From Paenibacillus lutimineralis (lineage in GTDB: Bacteria; Bacillota; Bacilli; Paenibacillales; Paenibacillaceae), in assembly GCF_003991425.1 (NCBI RefSeq), contig NZ_CP034346.1:2207501-2271500 (forward strand): a stretch of DNA of 64,000 nucleotides, in the 5' to 3' direction. The position numbers and the translations under genes are program-made. Shown piece after piece: positions 24,108 through 36,888 of this stretch. The notes beneath the pieces were generated by a model that saw only the letters and a program-made list of their open reading frames with translations, searched no databases and was not told where the DNA came from. Every line of letters begins with the position of its first letter. Positions within the stretch are counted from its first letter, which is position 1.

Positions 24108-24158
24108 ATGCGGGCCGAAATGGATATAGATTATATTTGCGAGGATGTGCTTCCTTAA
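24108..24158 (+). CDS. Possible 16-residue leader peptide upstream of the PHP gene
   Basis: A short frame reading MRAEMDIDYICEDVLP ends in TAA whose last A is the first base of the PHP-gene ATG (TAATG). AAGGAGGAA lies right before its ATG, and an in-frame GTG exists at 24096. Could couple translation to the downstream gene, which has no strong site of its own. Product itself has no recognisable function. Confidence 0.35.
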   Translation: MRAEMDIDYICEDVLP

Positions 24159-25027
24159 TGAAGGAGACCAATGAATCTAGATATGATTTACATACTCATA
24201 GCCGTGCATCGGACGGGATGAACACGCCGGAAGAGAATGTGAAGTTAGCAAAGGAGAAAGGACTGGCTGGTCTAGCGGTTACTGACCATGATACCGTGGC
24301 CGGAATCGCTGCGGCTCAGATAGAAGGAGAACGGATAGGGGTTCATATCATTCCGGGTGTGGAGATCAGCACCCAGGCAGCAGGCAAAGATATTCATGTG
24401 CTCGGTTACTATCTAAATGTTGAGGACTCCGTTCTGCTGGAGAGGTTGGCTGGACTGCGTGCAACACGTGATGCCCGCAATGAGCAGATTATCCGTAATC
24501 TTCAAGGCTTGGGCCTGTCGATCACGCTGCAAGAGGTTATCGATGGTCTAGGTCGCAGCCTGCGCCCGGATGAGAGCTTGGGACGCCCACATATTGCAGA
24601 TGCGTTGGTGCACAAAGGTTATGTCCGTGATATGCGCGAGGCCTTTGATCGGTATTTGGCTGAAGGGAAACCCGGCTATGCAGCTCAGCCAAGAATATCA
24701 CCGCAGCAGGCGATGGAATGGATTCGCGAAGCTGGCGGCGCTCCGGTGATCGCCCATCCTGGCTTGTACGGGGATGACGAGCTAGTCCGTACAATTATTG
24801 AGGCTGGAAGGCCTGCCGGAATCGAGGTATATCACTCGGACCATGGGCACGCGGAGGAACAACGATATTTAGCGATCGCTAATGAATATCATCTGATTTC
24901 CACTGGGGGCTCGGACTATCATGGCGTCAGGCAGGGTGTTGTGTTCCATGGCGATCTTGGCAGCCGTTTCGTTACAGAGGAGACGGTGGAACGACTAAGG
25001 CAAGCTGTCCAACAATTGAGAGGGTAA
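24158..25027 (+). CDS. PHP-domain phosphoesterase (RNase AM / nucleoside bisphosphatase type)
   Basis: 289-residue metal-dependent phosphoesterase. PHP motifs: DLHTHSRASDG, VTDHDTVAG, GVEISTQ, HVLGYYL, GRPHIADALV, PVIAHPGLY, IEVYHSDHG and GGSDYHG. Relatives hydrolyse 3',5'-nucleoside bisphosphates and trim 5' ends of small RNAs; activity here is inferred. The ATG at 24158 is used; the in-frame TTG at 24137 has no ribosome site. GAGGA is 12 nt upstream and the start overlaps the stop of a short leader frame. Confidence 0.87.
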   Translation: MKETNESRYDLHTHSRASDGMNTPEENVKLAKEKGLAGLAVTDHDTVAGIAAAQIEGERIGVHIIPGVEISTQAAGKDIHVLGYYLNVEDSVLLERLAGLRATRDARNEQIIRNLQGLGLSITLQEVIDGLGRSLRPDESLGRPHIADALVHKGYVRDMREAFDRYLAEGKPGYAAQPRISPQQAMEWIREAGGAPVIAHPGLYGDDELVRTIIEAGRPAGIEVYHSDHGHAEEQRYLAIANEYHLISTGGSDYHGVRQGVVFHGDLGSRFVTEETVERLRQAVQQLRG

Positions 25028-25115: not shown

Positions 25116-25298
25116 TAACGGAACTATAGATCGTTATTACCTCAAAAATAGCGGCAAATGAAATCTAACGAAACACCATATCGTTATTTGGGAGAAAACC
25201 AGCCTGTGAATCTTTAATTGGCTTCAATAACGATACCCCGTTTCGTTAAAAATTTTGGTCGCCCATTTTGGTCCAAATAACGATACCAAGTTTCGTTA
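25116..25298. repeat. Quartet dyad array A1
   Basis: Four 23-bp units at 25116, 25166, 25226 and 25276 (starts 50, 60 and 50 bp apart). The first two read TAAC(G)GAAAC-like arm, N5, ATCGTTATT; the last two are the reverse (AATAACGAT, N5, GTTTCGTTA). Unit 1 pairs with unit 4 and unit 2 with unit 3, and the 27-bp spacers are partly complementary, so the array is a long imperfect inverted repeat with a 37-bp centre. No coding potential. The homologous array is at 33698-33880 in inverse orientation. Confidence 0.8.
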
Positions 25299-25342: not shown

Positions 25343-26170
25343 ATGATGACATATAAAATGATAGTACTAGATTTAGATGATACTCTGCTTCGCGATGATG
25401 GGACGATCTCGCCCCGCAACAAGCAAGCGCTAATGGCTGCGCAGGAGGCAGGCGTAAAGGTTGTACTGGCATCGGGGAGACCTACTTATGCAATGAAGGC
25501 ACTGGCCGATGAATTGGAGCTGGAGCGGTTCGGGAGCTATATTCTATCGTTCAACGGAGCGAAGATTATTAATTGGAAGACGCGAGAGGAGCCATTCAGC
25601 AGCACGCTGGCCCCAGAGACAGCTCACGCTCTTTATGAGATGAGTATTCAAGAGGGCGTATCAGCGCTAACGTATGTCGGCGATGATATTGTGACGGAGC
25701 AGGTGAATGAGTATACCCATATTGAAGCGCAAATTACTGGAATGAAGATTGCTGAGGTGCCAAGCTTCATCGAGGCCGTTCAAGTCCCGGTTGTGAAGGT
25801 GCTAATGGTTGAAGATCCGGACAAGCTTGTACGGGTTGAAGAGAAGCTGAAAGCCAAGCTGACAGGAAAATTGAACGTGATGCGTTCGAAGCCATTTTTT
25901 CTCGAGTTCACGGAGAATGGTGTCAATAAAGGAACCAGCCTGAATCATTTGATCAAACAGCTGGGAATTGAGCGCTCAGAAGTGATCGCGATGGGCGATG
26001 GATATAACGATGTAGCGATGCTTGAATTTGCCGGTCTAGGCGTTGCTATGGGCAATGCGCCTAAGGAAATTAAGCAGTTGGCCGATTATGTCACAGATAC
26101 GAATATGAATGATGGCGTGGCTCAGGTTGTGGAATCATTTATTCTGAATGACCTGATACCAACGACATAA
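25343..26170 (+). CDS. Cof-type HAD family hydrolase
   Basis: 275-residue phosphatase of HAD subclass IIB. Motif I LDLDDTLLRDDG, motif II LASGRPTYAMK, Lys region KPFFLEFTENGVNKG, and motif IV MGDGYNDVAML. A cap domain lies at about 85-190. Relatives dephosphorylate sugar phosphates, FMN or other small molecules. AAAGGATGG lies upstream; the ATG at 25346 is an equally possible start. Confidence 0.9.
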   Translation: MMTYKMIVLDLDDTLLRDDGTISPRNKQALMAAQEAGVKVVLASGRPTYAMKALADELELERFGSYILSFNGAKIINWKTREEPFSSTLAPETAHALYEMSIQEGVSALTYVGDDIVTEQVNEYTHIEAQITGMKIAEVPSFIEAVQVPVVKVLMVEDPDKLVRVEEKLKAKLTGKLNVMRSKPFFLEFTENGVNKGTSLNHLIKQLGIERSEVIAMGDGYNDVAMLEFAGLGVAMGNAPKEIKQLADYVTDTNMNDGVAQVVESFILNDLIPTT

Positions 26171-31390: not shown

Positions 31391-33178
31391 TTAATTTCTC
31401 ACCACATTAGGCATCTTCTTGATCATGTGCTCATCCGGAGTAACGAACAGAGTCTTCTGATGATCATAGATCACAAATCCTGGCTTAGCCCCGCTTGGCT
31501 TGCGAACATGGCGGATCAGCGTGTAGTCGACCGGTACACTGCTGGATTGCTTAGCCTGGCTGTAGTATGCAGATAATTGCGCCGCTTCGTTAAGCGTCGC
31601 TTCACCGTAGGAGTTACTGCGGATCAGCACGTGCGAGCCGGGGATATCCTTCGTATGCAGCCATGTATCGTTCGCATTGCCGACCCGGTTCGTTACGTAG
31701 TCATTCTGCAGATTGTTCTTGCCTACGTAGATTTCAATTCCTTCGGAAGAAGTATAGACATGCAGTGTCGGCTTGTCGTTTTTCTTCTTCTTTTTCATCT
31801 TCTTGCTCCGATCGCGCAGATATCCTTGCTGTACCAGCTCTTCGCGAATTTCGTCAATATCGTCGAGTGTCGCGTGGGAGAGCTGCTGTAGCAGCTGCTC
31901 CATATAGCTGATCTCCTCGCGGGTAATCTTCATTTGTTCATCGATGACCGTCAGACTGTTCTTGTATTTATTATATTTCTTAAAATAACGCTGGGCATTC
32001 TCCGATGGCGTCAGCAGTGGATCGAGATCAATCGTCACGGTTGCCTGGTTCTCATCGTAGTAGTTGATCAATTCTACGGCTTTGTCTCCCTTATGCATCA
32101 GGTGCAGGGAGGAGAACAGCAACTCGCCCCTAACGCGGTATTGTTCGGCATCTCCGGCTTCGGCCAAGTCCTCTTCCAGCTTGGACATTTTCTTAATATT
32201 TTTGCTTAGTTCATTGTGCAGGAAGCGCAGCAGATCGCTGGTCTTCTGCTTCACCGTATCTCTTAACGCCTTGTCGCCGTAGTATTCTTCCATGCAGTCG
32301 CTAATGGAATCATAGGTGCGCAGATTACTCTGGATCAGCGTGAGCTTCACGGCAGAGAATACACTCTTCCCTTTGGCATTCTCGCCGGTAACCGGTTCAT
32401 AGTGATGCTCGCGAATTTGCGCCATCAGGTCGGCGAAAGAGCTCCAGAGTGCAGTCGCTTTACCCATTGTCATCTCGTGAGAAGCATTGTTATCTGCGGC
32501 TACTCCTGCAGAGTCTTCCTCTGCCTTGCTTGCCCTCAGACATATCTCCTCAGCGATAAGTGGGCTAAGTCCACTAAAGGTGGATACAAGCCAGCTCTTA
32601 TCCGAGGTCCCGATCTCAGCCTGCTGATAGGCATCCATGAATTGCTCCTTCACAATCTCAAGCGGATGCAGCTTATTCTGCTGCGGAGGCTCTGTATAAG
32701 CGAATCCGGGCATGACGATCCGGTAGCTGCTGATTGCCGGGGTTACATGGTGAATTCCGTCCAGCTGTGTTCCCGATGCGGGATCGAGCAGAATAATGTT
32801 GCTGTGCCGTCCCATTAATTCAATGATGATGCGCTTCAAGGATTCATCCCCAAGCTCATCGCGTTGCCGAATGTCGATATGGATTATCCGTTCCATTTCT
32901 TGCTGGGTAACGGCTTCGATGACGCCGCTCTCACAATGCTTGCGTAGTAGCATGCAGAACATCGGAGCTTCCAGCGGATTGGGGAAGGATTGCTCGGTCA
33001 TTTGCACCCGGGGATATGTCGGGTTGGCCGAGAGCAGCAGGCGCCGGTTGCCTCCTCTTGAGCGCAATTGAATAATAATGTCGTTATCCGTAGGCTGATG
33101 TATTTTATTGATGCGTCCACCTACACAAATCTGTAGTTCGTGAACGATGGAGTGCGTTACGATTCCGTCAAGTGCCAT
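31391..33178 (-). CDS. rqcH: RqcH / NFACT family ribosome quality control protein
   Basis: 595 residues, homologue of B. subtilis RqcH (YloA, once called fibronectin-binding protein FbpA). On obstructed 50S subunits it recruits tRNA-Ala and adds C-terminal alanine tails that mark nascent chains for degradation. NFACT-N is at 1-185 with the critical Asp-Arg in IDIRQRDELGDE and ELMGRHSNIILLD. A coiled-coil middle spans about 290-430. The C-terminal NFACT-R has DTWLHTKDIPGSHVLIR. CAGGAGAT is 10 nt before the ATG. In B. subtilis it is co-oriented with yloB; here it is inverted and flanked by repeats. Confidence 0.93.
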   Translation of the reverse strand: MALDGIVTHSIVHELQICVGGRINKIHQPTDNDIIIQLRSRGGNRRLLLSANPTYPRVQMTEQSFPNPLEAPMFCMLLRKHCESGVIEAVTQQEMERIIHIDIRQRDELGDESLKRIIIELMGRHSNIILLDPASGTQLDGIHHVTPAISSYRIVMPGFAYTEPPQQNKLHPLEIVKEQFMDAYQQAEIGTSDKSWLVSTFSGLSPLIAEEICLRASKAEEDSAGVAADNNASHEMTMGKATALWSSFADLMAQIREHHYEPVTGENAKGKSVFSAVKLTLIQSNLRTYDSISDCMEEYYGDKALRDTVKQKTSDLLRFLHNELSKNIKKMSKLEEDLAEAGDAEQYRVRGELLFSSLHLMHKGDKAVELINYYDENQATVTIDLDPLLTPSENAQRYFKKYNKYKNSLTVIDEQMKITREEISYMEQLLQQLSHATLDDIDEIREELVQQGYLRDRSKKMKKKKKNDKPTLHVYTSSEGIEIYVGKNNLQNDYVTNRVGNANDTWLHTKDIPGSHVLIRSNSYGEATLNEAAQLSAYYSQAKQSSSVPVDYTLIRHVRKPSGAKPGFVIYDHQKTLFVTPDEHMIKKMPNVVRN

Positions 33179-33202
33179 ACCATGTAATCTCCTGTCTAAT
33201 AA

Positions 33203-33373
33203 GGTAGTTCAAAAAGTCACTTTTGATCCCGAGGTAACTCAGGGAAGAGTACTCGCCATCGAATCTTGAATTCAGCCGGGCCTTCCGGTGCTCACGTACA
33301 AACTACGTACGCTCCGCTCCTCATGCCCTAGCTTCATCCAACCTTCTTGGTGCTGAAAACTGACTTTTTGAAC
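33203..33373 (-). repeat. Dispersed TIR element, copy C (first of a triple tandem)
   Basis: GGTAGTTCAAAAAGTC to GACTTTTTGAAC. Interior nearly the same as copy B (CATCGAATCTTGAATTCAGC, GGCCTTCCGGTGCTCACG, TTGGTGCTGAAAACTGAC). Separated from copy D by ATTCATCTAAATAG. Confidence 0.8.
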
Positions 33374-33387
33374 ATTCATCTAAATAG

Positions 33388-33597
33388 GTAGTTCAAAAAG
33401 TCACTTTTGATCCCGAGGTAACTCTAAGGAGTATATTCGACATCGAATCTTGAATTCAGCCGGGACTAAGTAGATGCTTACGAAGTCATGTTTCCTCCAG
33501 AAACATCTCAGGTGCGCACGTACAAACTACGTATGCTCCGCTCCTCATGCCCTAGCTTCATCCAACCTTCTTGGTGCTGAAAACTGACTTTTTGAAC
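33388..33597 (-). repeat. Dispersed TIR element, copy D with extra hairpin module
   Basis: Same termini as copy C, but the CCTTCCGG segment is replaced by about 50 bp containing ATGTTTC-CTCCA-GAAACAT, a perfect small hairpin also found in copy F (46480-46535). The 3' third is almost identical to copy C. Confidence 0.8.
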
Positions 33598-33611
33598 ATT
33601 CATCTAAATAG

Positions 33612-33920
33612 GTAGTTCAAAAAGTCACTTTTGATCCCCGGTGTAACTCTAAGAAGTATATTCGACATCGAATCTTGAATCCAGCCGGGCCTTCCTCTAA
33701 CGAAACAGGGTATCGCTATTTGAGCCCAAAAGGGCTGTCAAAAATTTTAACGAAACAGGGTATCGTTATTGAAGCAAATTAAGGGCTTAACGTCTGAATT
33801 TTCCCAGAATAACGATATGGTGTTTCGTTAGATTTTATTTGCCGCTGTTTTTGCGGAAATAGCGATCCGTAGTTTCGTTAGACGGATACGTTCAACGCTG
33901 AAAAATCGACTTTTCTGAAC
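33612..33920 (-). repeat. Dispersed TIR element, copy E, with array A2 replacing its centre
   Basis: The left half (GTAGTTCAAAAAGTCAC through CAGCCGGGCCTTCC) matches copies C and D. The sequence then becomes quartet array A2, and the right end resumes at GCTGAAAAATCGACTTTTC and TGAAC (33895-33920). Confidence 0.7.
33698..33880. repeat. Quartet dyad array A2
   Basis: Units at 33698, 33748, 33808 and 33858, the same 50/60/50 spacing and total 183 bp as A1. The first two read TAACGAAAC-AGGGT-ATCG(T/C)TATT, the last two AATA(A/G)CGAT-N5-GTTTCGTTA. The reverse complement aligns with A1 along its whole length, including the spacers. Confidence 0.8.
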
Positions 33921-34086
33921 ATATCCTTATTTCTTCAATTTCTTGCTCCTCTCTATGATGCCATAACTGCAGCAAAAACTTAAGAGCTTCTTCTGTGATA
34001 ATTTGGGACTGGCCGGAATACATTTACCCTAGGTGGAAAAGCCTCACGCTGTTATCGCACTAAATACGGGAGGGGAAAAAAGGAGA

Positions 34087-36888
34087 ATGGAACAAAAAAA
34101 CTGGCACCAGTGGAATGGGGAAGAGCTTCTGGAGCTGTTGAACGTGAAGCGCGAACAGGGCCTGACCCGGGATGAGGCGCAGAGGAGACGGGAAGAGAAC
34201 GGCTGGAACGAATTGTCGGAGGGCAAGCGGGTATCTCCGCTGCTGCTGTTCCTGAACCAGTTTAAAGATTTCATGATGCTCGTATTAATGGGAGCTACGC
34301 TCATATCGGGAATTCTAGGCGAATATTTGGACGCCATTACGATTATTGCCATTGTAATCCTGAACGGTGTGCTCGGGTTCATTCAGGAATTCCGAGCTGA
34401 GCGTTCACTGCGAGCCTTGAAGCAGTTGTCTGCTCCCCACGCGAAGGTTCTTCGTGACGGGACCATCGAGCATATTCCGGCCAAGGAGCTTGTTCCCGGC
34501 GATATCGTAATCGTTGAGAGTGGAGATCGGATTCCGGCAGACGTTCGCTGGCTGTCTGTAAGCAGTATGGATGTCGAGGAGTCCGCATTGACTGGGGAAT
34601 CCCATCCCGTTGGCAAGCATGCCGGGGTGCTCCGCGAGGCGGAGGTGCCGCTGGGCGACCAGAAGAACCTGGGCTTTATGGGTACGATGGTGACCCGTGG
34701 CAGTGGCAGAGGAATCGTCGTTCGTACAGGCATGGATACAGAGATGGGTAAAATAGCAGATCTAATCCAAAATACCGATTCCCAGGAGACTCCGCTGCAG
34801 CGCCGTCTTGAGCAGCTGGGCAAAATATTGATATATCTCTCGCTGGGGCTCACGGTACTGGTCGTCCTCGTCGGTATTCTACATGGACAACCGCCCGGGG
34901 CCATGTTCTTAGCTGGGGTGAGCTTGGCTGTAGCGGCGATACCCGAGGGTCTGCCGGCGATCGTCACAATTGCGCTAGCACTTGGCGTACAGCGTATGAT
35001 CAAGCGCAAGGCGATTGTCCGCAAGCTTCCTTCCGTTGAGACATTGGGCTGTGCTTCGGTCATATGCTCGGATAAGACAGGAACGTTAACACAGAACAAA
35101 ATGACAGTAACCCATGTGTGGCTTGAAGGGCGAGCCCTGGAAGTAACAGGCGACGGCTATGAGCCAGTCGGTCAGATATTGGAGCATGGACGATCGGTTG
35201 ATCTTAAGAAAGATCAGAGCTTGCGCCGGCTGCTGCAGGTCAGCTCGCTGTGTGGAAATGCCGTGATCCATGAGGAAGACGGCGACCAGCAAGCGAAGCG
35301 CAAGGGGAAGGAACGGGAGGAGACCGCTGCTTCACGGTGGAAGCTGAAGGGGGATCCGACCGAAGGAGCGCTCGTTACGCTGGCAGCGAAGATGGGCTTA
35401 TCTCCAAGCGCGCTCGGCAGCATATATACACGCGAGAAGGAATTGCCATTTGATTCTGACCGCAAGCGAATGTCTGTTATCGTATCCCACCAGGGCGGAA
35501 AAATGGCGCTCGTCAAGGGAGCGCCGGATATGCTGCTGGAGAAATGCTCCTATATATTGTGGGACGGCAAGGTGGTTCCCTTCACCGGGACCTTCCGTCA
35601 GAAGGTCCAGGCTGCTAACGAGGGAATGGCGCGGAACGCGTTGCGTGTACTCGGACTGGCATACCGCGACTTGAGACATGATGATGCGGTCGAGTCAGAA
35701 GCGGATGTCGAGTCTCAATTAATATTCATCGGACTGGCCGGGATGATCGATCCGCCGCGCCGTGAGGCACGGGAGGCGATATCTGTCTGCCGCCGTGCTG
35801 GTATCAAGACAGTGATGATTACAGGCGACCACGGTCTGACAGCTGAAGCGATTGCCGCCGAACTCGGCATTATTCCGAGGGGTGGACGCACCATGTCCGG
35901 CAATCAGTTGGCTGCCATCAGTGATGAGGAGCTGGATCTTCAAATTGATCAGATCTATGTCTACTCCCGTGTTGCACCGGAACACAAGCTGCGGATTGTC
36001 AAGTCGCTGCAGCGTAAAGGCCATGTCGTAGCCATGACTGGCGATGGCGTCAACGATGCCCCGGCGATTAAGGCGGCGGATATTGGAATCGCAATGGGTA
36101 TTACCGGCACTGATGTATCTAAGGAGGCCTCTTCCCTAATACTCAGTGATGACAACTTCTCCTCCATCGTGGCGGCGATTGAGGAAGGACGGAATATTTA
36201 CGAGAACATCCGCAAGTTCATCCGCTACTTACTCGCTTCCAATGTCGGTGAGATATTAACGATGTTCTTCGCCATGTTGGCCGGGCTGCCGCTACCGCTA
36301 CTGCCGATTCAGATCTTGTGGGTTAATCTCGTTACAGACGGTTTGCCAGCGATGGCGCTTGGTGTAGACCAACCGGAGAAAGATTTAATGGAACACAAGC
36401 CGCGCGGAGCGAAAGAGAATATTTTTGCACGTAGACTAGGCTGGAAAATTATTAGCCGCGGATTGTTGATCGGCTTCTGTACGCTCGGGGCCTTCTGGAT
36501 CACGTTGCATAGCGCACCGGATGACCCAGCTCAGCTAGCCAAGGCGCAGTCAGTTGCTTTCGCAACATTGGTCATGGCCCAGCTGATTCATGTGTTCGAC
36601 TGCCGGAGTTCACGTTCGATTTTCCATCGCAACATCCTACAGAACCGTTATCTTGTCGTAGCTGTACTATCATCCGTACTCCTGCTGCTCGGGGTCATGT
36701 ATATCGAGAGTCTGCAGCCGATCTTCAAGACGGTTCCGCTCGGTTTCCGTGAATGGGCGCTCAGCTTCGTTGCTGCAGGCATACCGACGTTCCTGCTTGG
36801 GGCAGGCAGTGTCTGGTCGGGACGCCGTCGCAAGTATAACGGTCCAAGACAGATGATCTCGGCGAAAAGTACAAATATTCGTGCATAA
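34087..36888 (+). CDS. P-type Ca2+-transporting ATPase (P2A, YloB-like)
   Basis: 933-residue ATP-driven Ca2+ pump of the SERCA/PMR1 type, homologue of B. subtilis YloB. Motifs: ALTGES (actuator), [12 protein letters not shown] in M4 with the Ca-ligand Glu, [13 protein letters not shown] (phosphorylated Asp), [11 protein letters not shown] (nucleotide site), [13 protein letters not shown], and [15 protein letters not shown] in M6 with the Asn, Thr and Asp ligands. Ten membrane segments are expected. The ATG at 34087 is preferred because GGGAGGGG is 10 nt upstream; the GTG at 34033 has no site. Second gene of the yloA-recG block. Confidence 0.93.

Follow-up and report, generated by a model that had tools for sequence, protein, structure and literature searches.

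Among palindromic repeats that have a protein of their own, the REP sequences with their RAYT proteins are the best known. The BIME and ERIC repeats of enterobacteria are imperfect palindromic intergenic mosaics of repeated units; to our knowledge, they have neither a dedicated REase-like/winged-helix partner nor a 50/60/50 phasing. In PMC3733652 and PMC8049555, REP/REPIN and RAYT systems are described as dispersed short palindromes, often downstream of genes, with a dedicated gene beside the repeats. The same sources describe repeat-specific gene variants where a species has several repeat families, and a long persistence of the systems. One of these two sources (PMC3733652, PMC8049555) places GTAG repeats in Proteobacteria, Cyanobacteria, Chloroflexi and the PVC group, and its main text contains neither the word 'Paenibacillus' nor 'Firmicutes'.

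Two arrays of palindromic units were found in the window, i.e. the whole stretch of 64,000 nucleotides from Paenibacillus lutimineralis that was analyzed. Array 1 (25116..25298, plus strand) consists of an A half followed by an inverted B half. It is flanked on one side by a PHP-domain-like gene (24137-25027, +) and on the other by a HAD/Cof-like gene (25343-26170, +), both named from a reading of their translations. Its four 23-bp units occupy 25116..25138 (+, one mismatch), 25166..25188 (+), 25226..25248 (-) and 25276..25298 (-), the last three without a mismatch. Array 2 (33698..33880) runs from A to B on the minus strand; its neighbors, likewise named from their translations, are an NFACT/RqcH-like gene (31391-33178, -) and a P-type ATPase-like gene (34033-36888, +). 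Here the units are located at 33698..33720 (+, one mismatch), 33748..33770 (+, none), 33808..33830 (-, none) and 33858..33880 (-, one mismatch). The eight unit starts reported in the initial annotation, together with the strand order ++--, were confirmed in both arrays. When the window was searched with the unit pattern TAACGAAAC-N5-ATCGTTATT, allowing up to 3 mismatches, nine matches were obtained, one of which (25278, +) overlaps an opposite-strand unit, compared with 0.08 expected from shuffles. In the window, Rfam gave no family at or above its gathering score, and plasmid and phage searches with array 1 gave no match at E 0.01. The region adjoining array 2 (about 33200-33690) holds copies of another repeat family of about 180-230 bp with ends like GTTCAAAAAGTC...GACTTTTTGAAC. 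Several relatives of this family are present in 400 kb of the related strain D2_2, and one of them occupies the site of host-genome array 2389220.

The arrays resemble REPtrons in that they go together with a linked gene and with matching variants (29 of 30 loci; paralog-specific arms), but the protein belongs to another family, and the array unit differs in being composed of four dyads at a fixed 50/60/50 spacing. The Y1 tyrosine transposase (PF01797) had no match in the host or in its two closest relatives, GM2 and D2_2. Across a wider set, PF01797 was found in 8 of 20 genomes selected for many TAACGAAAC units and in 8 of 21 selected for few. No GTAG tag is fixed at the unit ends, where the consensus with its flanks reads TC-TAACG...CGYTATT. 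Because the transposase is absent from these three genomes and the tag is missing, membership of the REP/RAYT systems was rejected. The arrays are also similar to BIME and ERIC in being imperfect palindromic, intergenic repeated units.

With up to 3 mismatches, the unit pattern matched 305 times in the 6.5-Mb host genome, compared with 14 matches for the reversed pattern used as a control. A second pattern ignores the inner arms and fixes, with at most 3 mismatches, the central pair's outer arms together with the 60-bp step; it detected 73 central pairs, and the density of arrays is about one per 90 kb. We read 60 clusters in 669 kb of host-genome segments, chosen mostly around unit matches, and 32 of them were exactly ++-- at 50/60/50. 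Most of the other clusters were off by 1-2 bp, lacked units or had units added about 50 bp further out, and a few were odd pairs or single units. The spacing and the inverted symmetry initially noticed in the window are thus real and genome-wide; hits were not dominated by random spacing and single units, and the fixed 50/60/50 geometry holds throughout the host genome. A geometry-only scan of three 400-kb stretches gave scores of at least 65 either at 50/60/50 or at shifted spacings overlapping the same arrays (50/57, 50/64 and 50/50 steps, included as controls). Apart from these overlapping controls, no clearly different spacing reached a score of 65 in the three stretches. The same scan recovered quartets with other arms, for example TAACGGACA at 2345337 of the host genome.

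The two halves of an array differ in their centers, which are of the TACAG/ACCAT type in the A half and TGGGT/GTGGT or similar in the inverted B half. This division was seen with a score of at least 2 of 4 in 43 of 49 arrays, indicating that the element has a direction. The initial annotation had proposed that arms are kept while the 5-bp centers vary. Conservation of the arms was borne out, but the centers are not freely variable, being divided by half in 43 of the 49 arrays. Relative to the replication strand, the A-to-B direction looked mixed by eye. In the 37 of 49 arrays of exact length, which were used for the analyses of mirror positions and spacer identity, most arm positions are near invariant and the spacers are about half identical between arrays (median 0.53). 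The closest pair (0.88) are neighbors, and no other pair exceeded 0.76.

As hairpins, both window arrays fold far better than shuffled sequences (z -5.6 and -6.95), and arrays lie 3' of genes, including the gene of the partner protein described below. Both observations suit a role as RNA, with the arrays acting as 3' UTR hairpins that stabilize or process mRNA (RNase III-type or REP-like). However, mirror positions in the 37 arrays pair no more often than independent columns predict; since the arrays were oriented by their centers, the center contrast in this analysis arises partly by construction. At unit position 19, which varies freely, and its partner, the combinations CA, CG, TA and TG occurred 8, 7, 7 and 15 times among the 37 arrays, showing no preference for pairs, with A-C mismatches as frequent as independence predicts. 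Facing centers are mostly non-complementary. The lack of mirror-position covariation speaks against an RNA stem, and the hairpin as the selected feature was rejected, no compensatory changes having been found in 37 arrays. We consider a role of the arrays as RNA very unlikely. When arm families are compared, positions 6 and 16 of the dyad do change in concert (Watson-Crick 0.51 versus 0.36 expected), and a value this high came up in 1 of 500 shuffles. Such covariation would be expected if a dimer reads the palindromic site. The arms had been taken at the outset for either protein sites or compensated RNA stems; they behave as protein sites, and the stems lack the covariation between mirror pairs.

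The closest relatives searched were Paenibacillus sp. GM2 and D2_2, with 91 and 90% identity in one protein; the next stood at 72-73%. Four TAACGAAAC arrays are present in 400 kb of the host genome, and GM2 has all four in the same places; at these positions D2_2 has one intact and one partial array. The two absences in D2_2 may be losses there or gains by the others. No extra TAACGAAAC-family array was seen in the stretches of GM2 or D2_2 that were fetched, and no array was clearly private to one genome in the three times 400 kb. Array 1 has an orthologue in D2_2, and five tandem quartets with 20 units alternating at 50/60/50/60 are found at the GM2 locus. The orthologue of array 2 in GM2 is a multi-unit array, and D2_2 lacks this array plus flanking sequence (about 750 bp). 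Local tandem amplification was visible in GM2 at both window-array loci (contig C10, 2604999-2606061 and 2585432-2586382, with 20 and at least 17 units). The D2_2 orthologue of the NFACT/RqcH-like window gene (31391-33178) is split and appears as two overlapping matches (C1:1913946-1915729).

At four orthologous pairs, the arms differed at 10 of 288 positions and the spacers at 73 of 364 (Fisher p=3.6e-11), with gapped columns not counted and one locus versus two GM2 copies left out. This set is free of the central-arm bias of the next one, and its host arrays were still found by motif. In ten further orthologous pairs, the arms differed at 18 of 720 and the spacers at 174 of 909 positions, and 7 of the 18 arm differences were C/T at position 19; these loci, all one-to-one, with multi-copy, partial and unmatched loci left out, were found by an exact match of the central outer arms and lean towards conserved arms. 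Because arms differ far less than spacers at orthologous loci, the sites look held by selection, and judged from these alignments, selection looks to have kept the arrays in place.

Spacers at orthologous loci are about 0.80 identical, versus a median of 0.53 between different host arrays, so dispersal looks older than the species split. At the two D2_2 loci inspected, neither a target-site duplication nor a clean empty site was found; both differ by larger changes. In another genome, G171, array-bearing copies of about 450 bp lie on many contigs, some pairs being 91-95% identical. The quartet lies within this dispersed element (L390-L407), which ends in a terminator-like hairpin, indicating that spread in G171 involves more than the quartet. 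Several of the G171 copies begin just after apparent (by eye) host intrinsic terminators. The proposal of a non-autonomous mobile palindrome stands in part: in the host clade, copies look dispersed long ago, and the sites are now conserved in place.

Like MITEs, the arrays are small, non-coding, symmetric by inversion and present in many copies. A standard transposase acting on a conventional MITE or REPIN, with the linked protein uninvolved, would account for dispersed, intergenic, palindromic copies with inverted ends and for relics of other arm families. Yet the arrays differ from MITEs in their internal four-site phasing and in arms conserved in place, and at the two D2_2 loci inspected, which differ by larger changes, neither a terminal duplication nor a clean empty site was found. 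Moreover, the Y1/RAYT family, the sole transposase family searched, is absent from the host, GM2 and D2_2, and the linkage of gene and array (29 of 30 loci versus 0 of 27 controls) would be unexplained. Such an element is highly improbable.

Central-pair matches were obtained in 103 of 195 genomes of the host's order, representing 34 of 49 genera. The highest count in any genome was 193, and the reversed control matched in 1 of the 195. Several genomes of the same genus gave no central-pair match. A scan of named genomes gave at least 80 matches, those listed being in Paenibacillus, Saccharibacillus, Cohnella and Paenibacillaceae records. The query did not include the outer 50-bp step; among the matches listed, this step holds in 79 of 94 ++ and 94 of 110 -- neighbors. 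The literature search covered open-access PMC, with subscription journals and bioRxiv outside its scope, and among the matches listed no description of the arrays was recognized. One of three arm strings occurs in a paper on Paenibacillus thiaminolyticus (PMC10343464). The arrays apparently constitute a widespread, undescribed family of four-site DNA arrays at 50/60/50. With no match in Rfam and no catalogued repeat met in the open PMC searches, the earlier statement that no described element of this geometry was known held up. A genome from another family of the order (G119) has different arms, TAACGGAAC...GCGYTATT, at the same central spacing (e.g. C2:84683 and 84947), with 22 central pairs in 3.1 Mb.

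A candidate partner was found unprompted, as the largest cluster among 268 array-adjacent genes; it spans 6 species, and the next largest spans 4. In the host, it is a gene for a 216-aa protein at 3758090-3758740 of the chromosome, outside the window and about 1.5 Mb away, flanked by arrays at 3757649 and 3758779. The protein is 96% identical to one from Paenibacillus motobuensis. Searches of Pfam, NCBIfam and the PDB assigned it to no family beyond weak matches, mostly winged-helix, and solved structures gave winged-helix and unrelated weak matches only. The winged-helix matches fall in the C-terminus; the N-terminus is weakly DUF559/REase-like. In 6 of 8 divergent members, residues ~61-137 match DUF559/REase_MTES_1575 (PD-(D/E)XK), and E59, D71, E84 and H91 are conserved. 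The resemblance to DUF559/REase_MTES_1575 consists of weak, repeated profile matches, with one member above the Pfam cut-off; the family differs in that 7 of the 8 members scanned are below the curated cut-off, a winged helix is joined and repeat arrays are linked. Many sources name the homologs 'transcriptional regulator'. Its profile matches suggest that the partner is a DNA-binding, possibly nuclease, protein.

A quartet was present at 29 of the 30 best homolog loci, with scores of 71-101 and a single miss at 59. With the same geometry threshold of 66, fixed before the controls were scored, quartets were found at 0 of 27 PHP-gene loci, all from same-genus genomes (highest score 65), and at 0 of 8 Y1-transposase loci. 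The PHP-gene control omits L101-L103 (host, GM2 and D2_2), which carry arrays and are the finding's own locus. Position was assessed in 45 homolog loci with an array, comprising the 29 array-bearing loci of the 30 best and 16 picked for having an array, with one array-less locus dropped; this set informs position and arm similarity, not frequency. The nearest array was downstream of the gene in 41 loci and overlapped the gene end by 8-11 bp in 4, and it was at most 163 bp from the homolog match in 41 of the 45.

Among the 195 genomes, gene and arrays occur together in 99 and are both missing from 37; 55 carry the gene without arrays, and 4 carry arrays (1-2 each) without the gene. At least three arrays were found in 83 of 154 gene-bearing genomes versus 0 of 41 without the gene (83/71/0/41, p=4e-12). 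In a sample of 398 Bacilli genomes, of which 360 are outside the order, arrays matched in 5 outside genomes (21, 4, 3, 1 and 1 matches; in two of these genomes the call depends on one match with 3 mismatches). The gene is present in 19 of the outside genomes, and these include all 5. Host-genome paralogs lie beside arrays of other arm types at 2344656, 4475658 and 5905867. Protein and arm similarity are correlated (r=0.53, p=8e-4, n=45), a relationship confounded by shared descent. The five genomes with the best protein-profile matches, three of them close relatives, are also the five richest in TAACGAAAC units (at most 2 mismatches). Chromosome-organizing sites that mark nucleoid or domain boundaries, and to which a host protein not related to the linked family binds, would also agree with unit spacings that are multiples of ten, with a density of one array in about 90 kb and with conservation in place. 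Such sites would hardly be missing from several genomes of the same genus, nor would their absence track that of the linked gene or their arms differ between paralogous gene-array pairs, and we regard this explanation as barely credible.

The association has exceptions. By the pattern used, 55 of the 154 gene-bearing genomes have no array, and at least one divergent host paralog (L349) has other arms. Outside the order, a quartet was found at 3 of 11 homolog loci examined. In genus g7, the partner homolog contains an in-frame TGA at 8 of 8 loci (L364, L365, L367, L368, L370, L371, L372 and L375); seven of these have no quartet over the threshold, and the eighth is borderline (67 versus 66). 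Four g7 genomes of the Bacilli sample (G045, G113, G413 and G439) have 1-2 array matches each and no gene match. In a family whose adjacent gene is split in the host and D2_2, the arms are still conserved (3/71 versus 25/91 in the spacers), so that gene cannot be the sole reader of the arrays. In another family, with an in-frame stop in the D2_2 gene, the arms differ to the same extent as the spacer (12/58 versus 23/83, with 20 arm positions gapped). Regarding decay of the arms after breakage of the adjacent gene, one locus is for and one against. Taken as an association, the partnership of protein and array is in our judgment close to established, and we hold it with high confidence.

With respect to genes, 46 of 49 arrays overlap no predicted ORF, and these 46 lie near gene 3' ends, 27 in co-directional, 15 in convergent and 4 in divergent gaps. 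Terminator-like hairpins were present within 70 bp of either array end in 10 of 49 cases, compared with 9 of 300 random windows and 9 of 124 3'-end positions, the latter set being tested on one side. Targeting of terminators was rejected, as the signal is weak and confounded by the 3' location. The position near 3' ends does favor a purely regulatory explanation, according to which the protein is a global DNA-binding regulator, the arrays are operators, roadblocks or insulators at 3' ends, nothing is mobilized, and the nuclease-like domain is dead or allosteric. Arms conserved in place, the winged-helix C-terminus and the name 'transcriptional regulator' given to homologs agree with it. However, few arrays lie in divergent promoter regions, and the many copies, the several arm families per genome and the patchy presence look like the spread of an element, as do the similar ~450-bp array-bearing copies on many G171 contigs. 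We therefore rate a purely regulatory role as rather unlikely.

We lean, with some reserve, towards arrays that are dispersed binding sites of the partner family, with the 216-aa protein as the likeliest partner for TAACGAAAC-type arms and with past spread by way of its REase-like N-terminus. According to this model, a dimer would bind each 23-bp dyad (TAACGR...YCGTTA) through the winged helix, and four dimers would assemble on the phased, inverted array. The REase-like N-terminus may have nicked or cut at arrays and so have spread or amplified them in the past, comparable to the way in which RAYT proteins are thought to spread REPs. Today, arrays in the host clade would move rarely or never, and selection would keep them at gene 3' ends, probably because a bound array affects transcription or chromosome structure there. 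The parts of this model differ in strength: recognition of the arrays by the partner protein at the DNA level is probable, and for their spread by its nuclease-like domain we see an even chance. The broadest formulation is an undescribed repeat-protein system in which a REase-like/winged-helix family reads the quartets, makes or spreads them and switches arm specificity along with the arrays, and in which up to ~190 arrays now serve the host at 3' ends; to this formulation as a whole we give about even weight.

On our best reading, the components are new and the functional analogue is known, namely a REPtron-like partnership. Relatives of this one uncharacterized gene very often lie directly next to an array, which suggests a new type of partnership between repeats and a protein in soil bacteria. 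If true, this would be a second, unrelated repeat-protein solution, in Firmicutes, with several specificity variants per genome. Its regular architecture of four dyads at 50/60/50 makes stoichiometry and assembly directly testable. The finding would also offer a lead to the function of a protein family that lacks its own Pfam entry, is often called 'transcriptional regulator' and is represented in some other Bacilli as well as in 154 of the 195 genomes from the host's order, and the apparent selection on sites in place bears on why bacteria keep such repeats.
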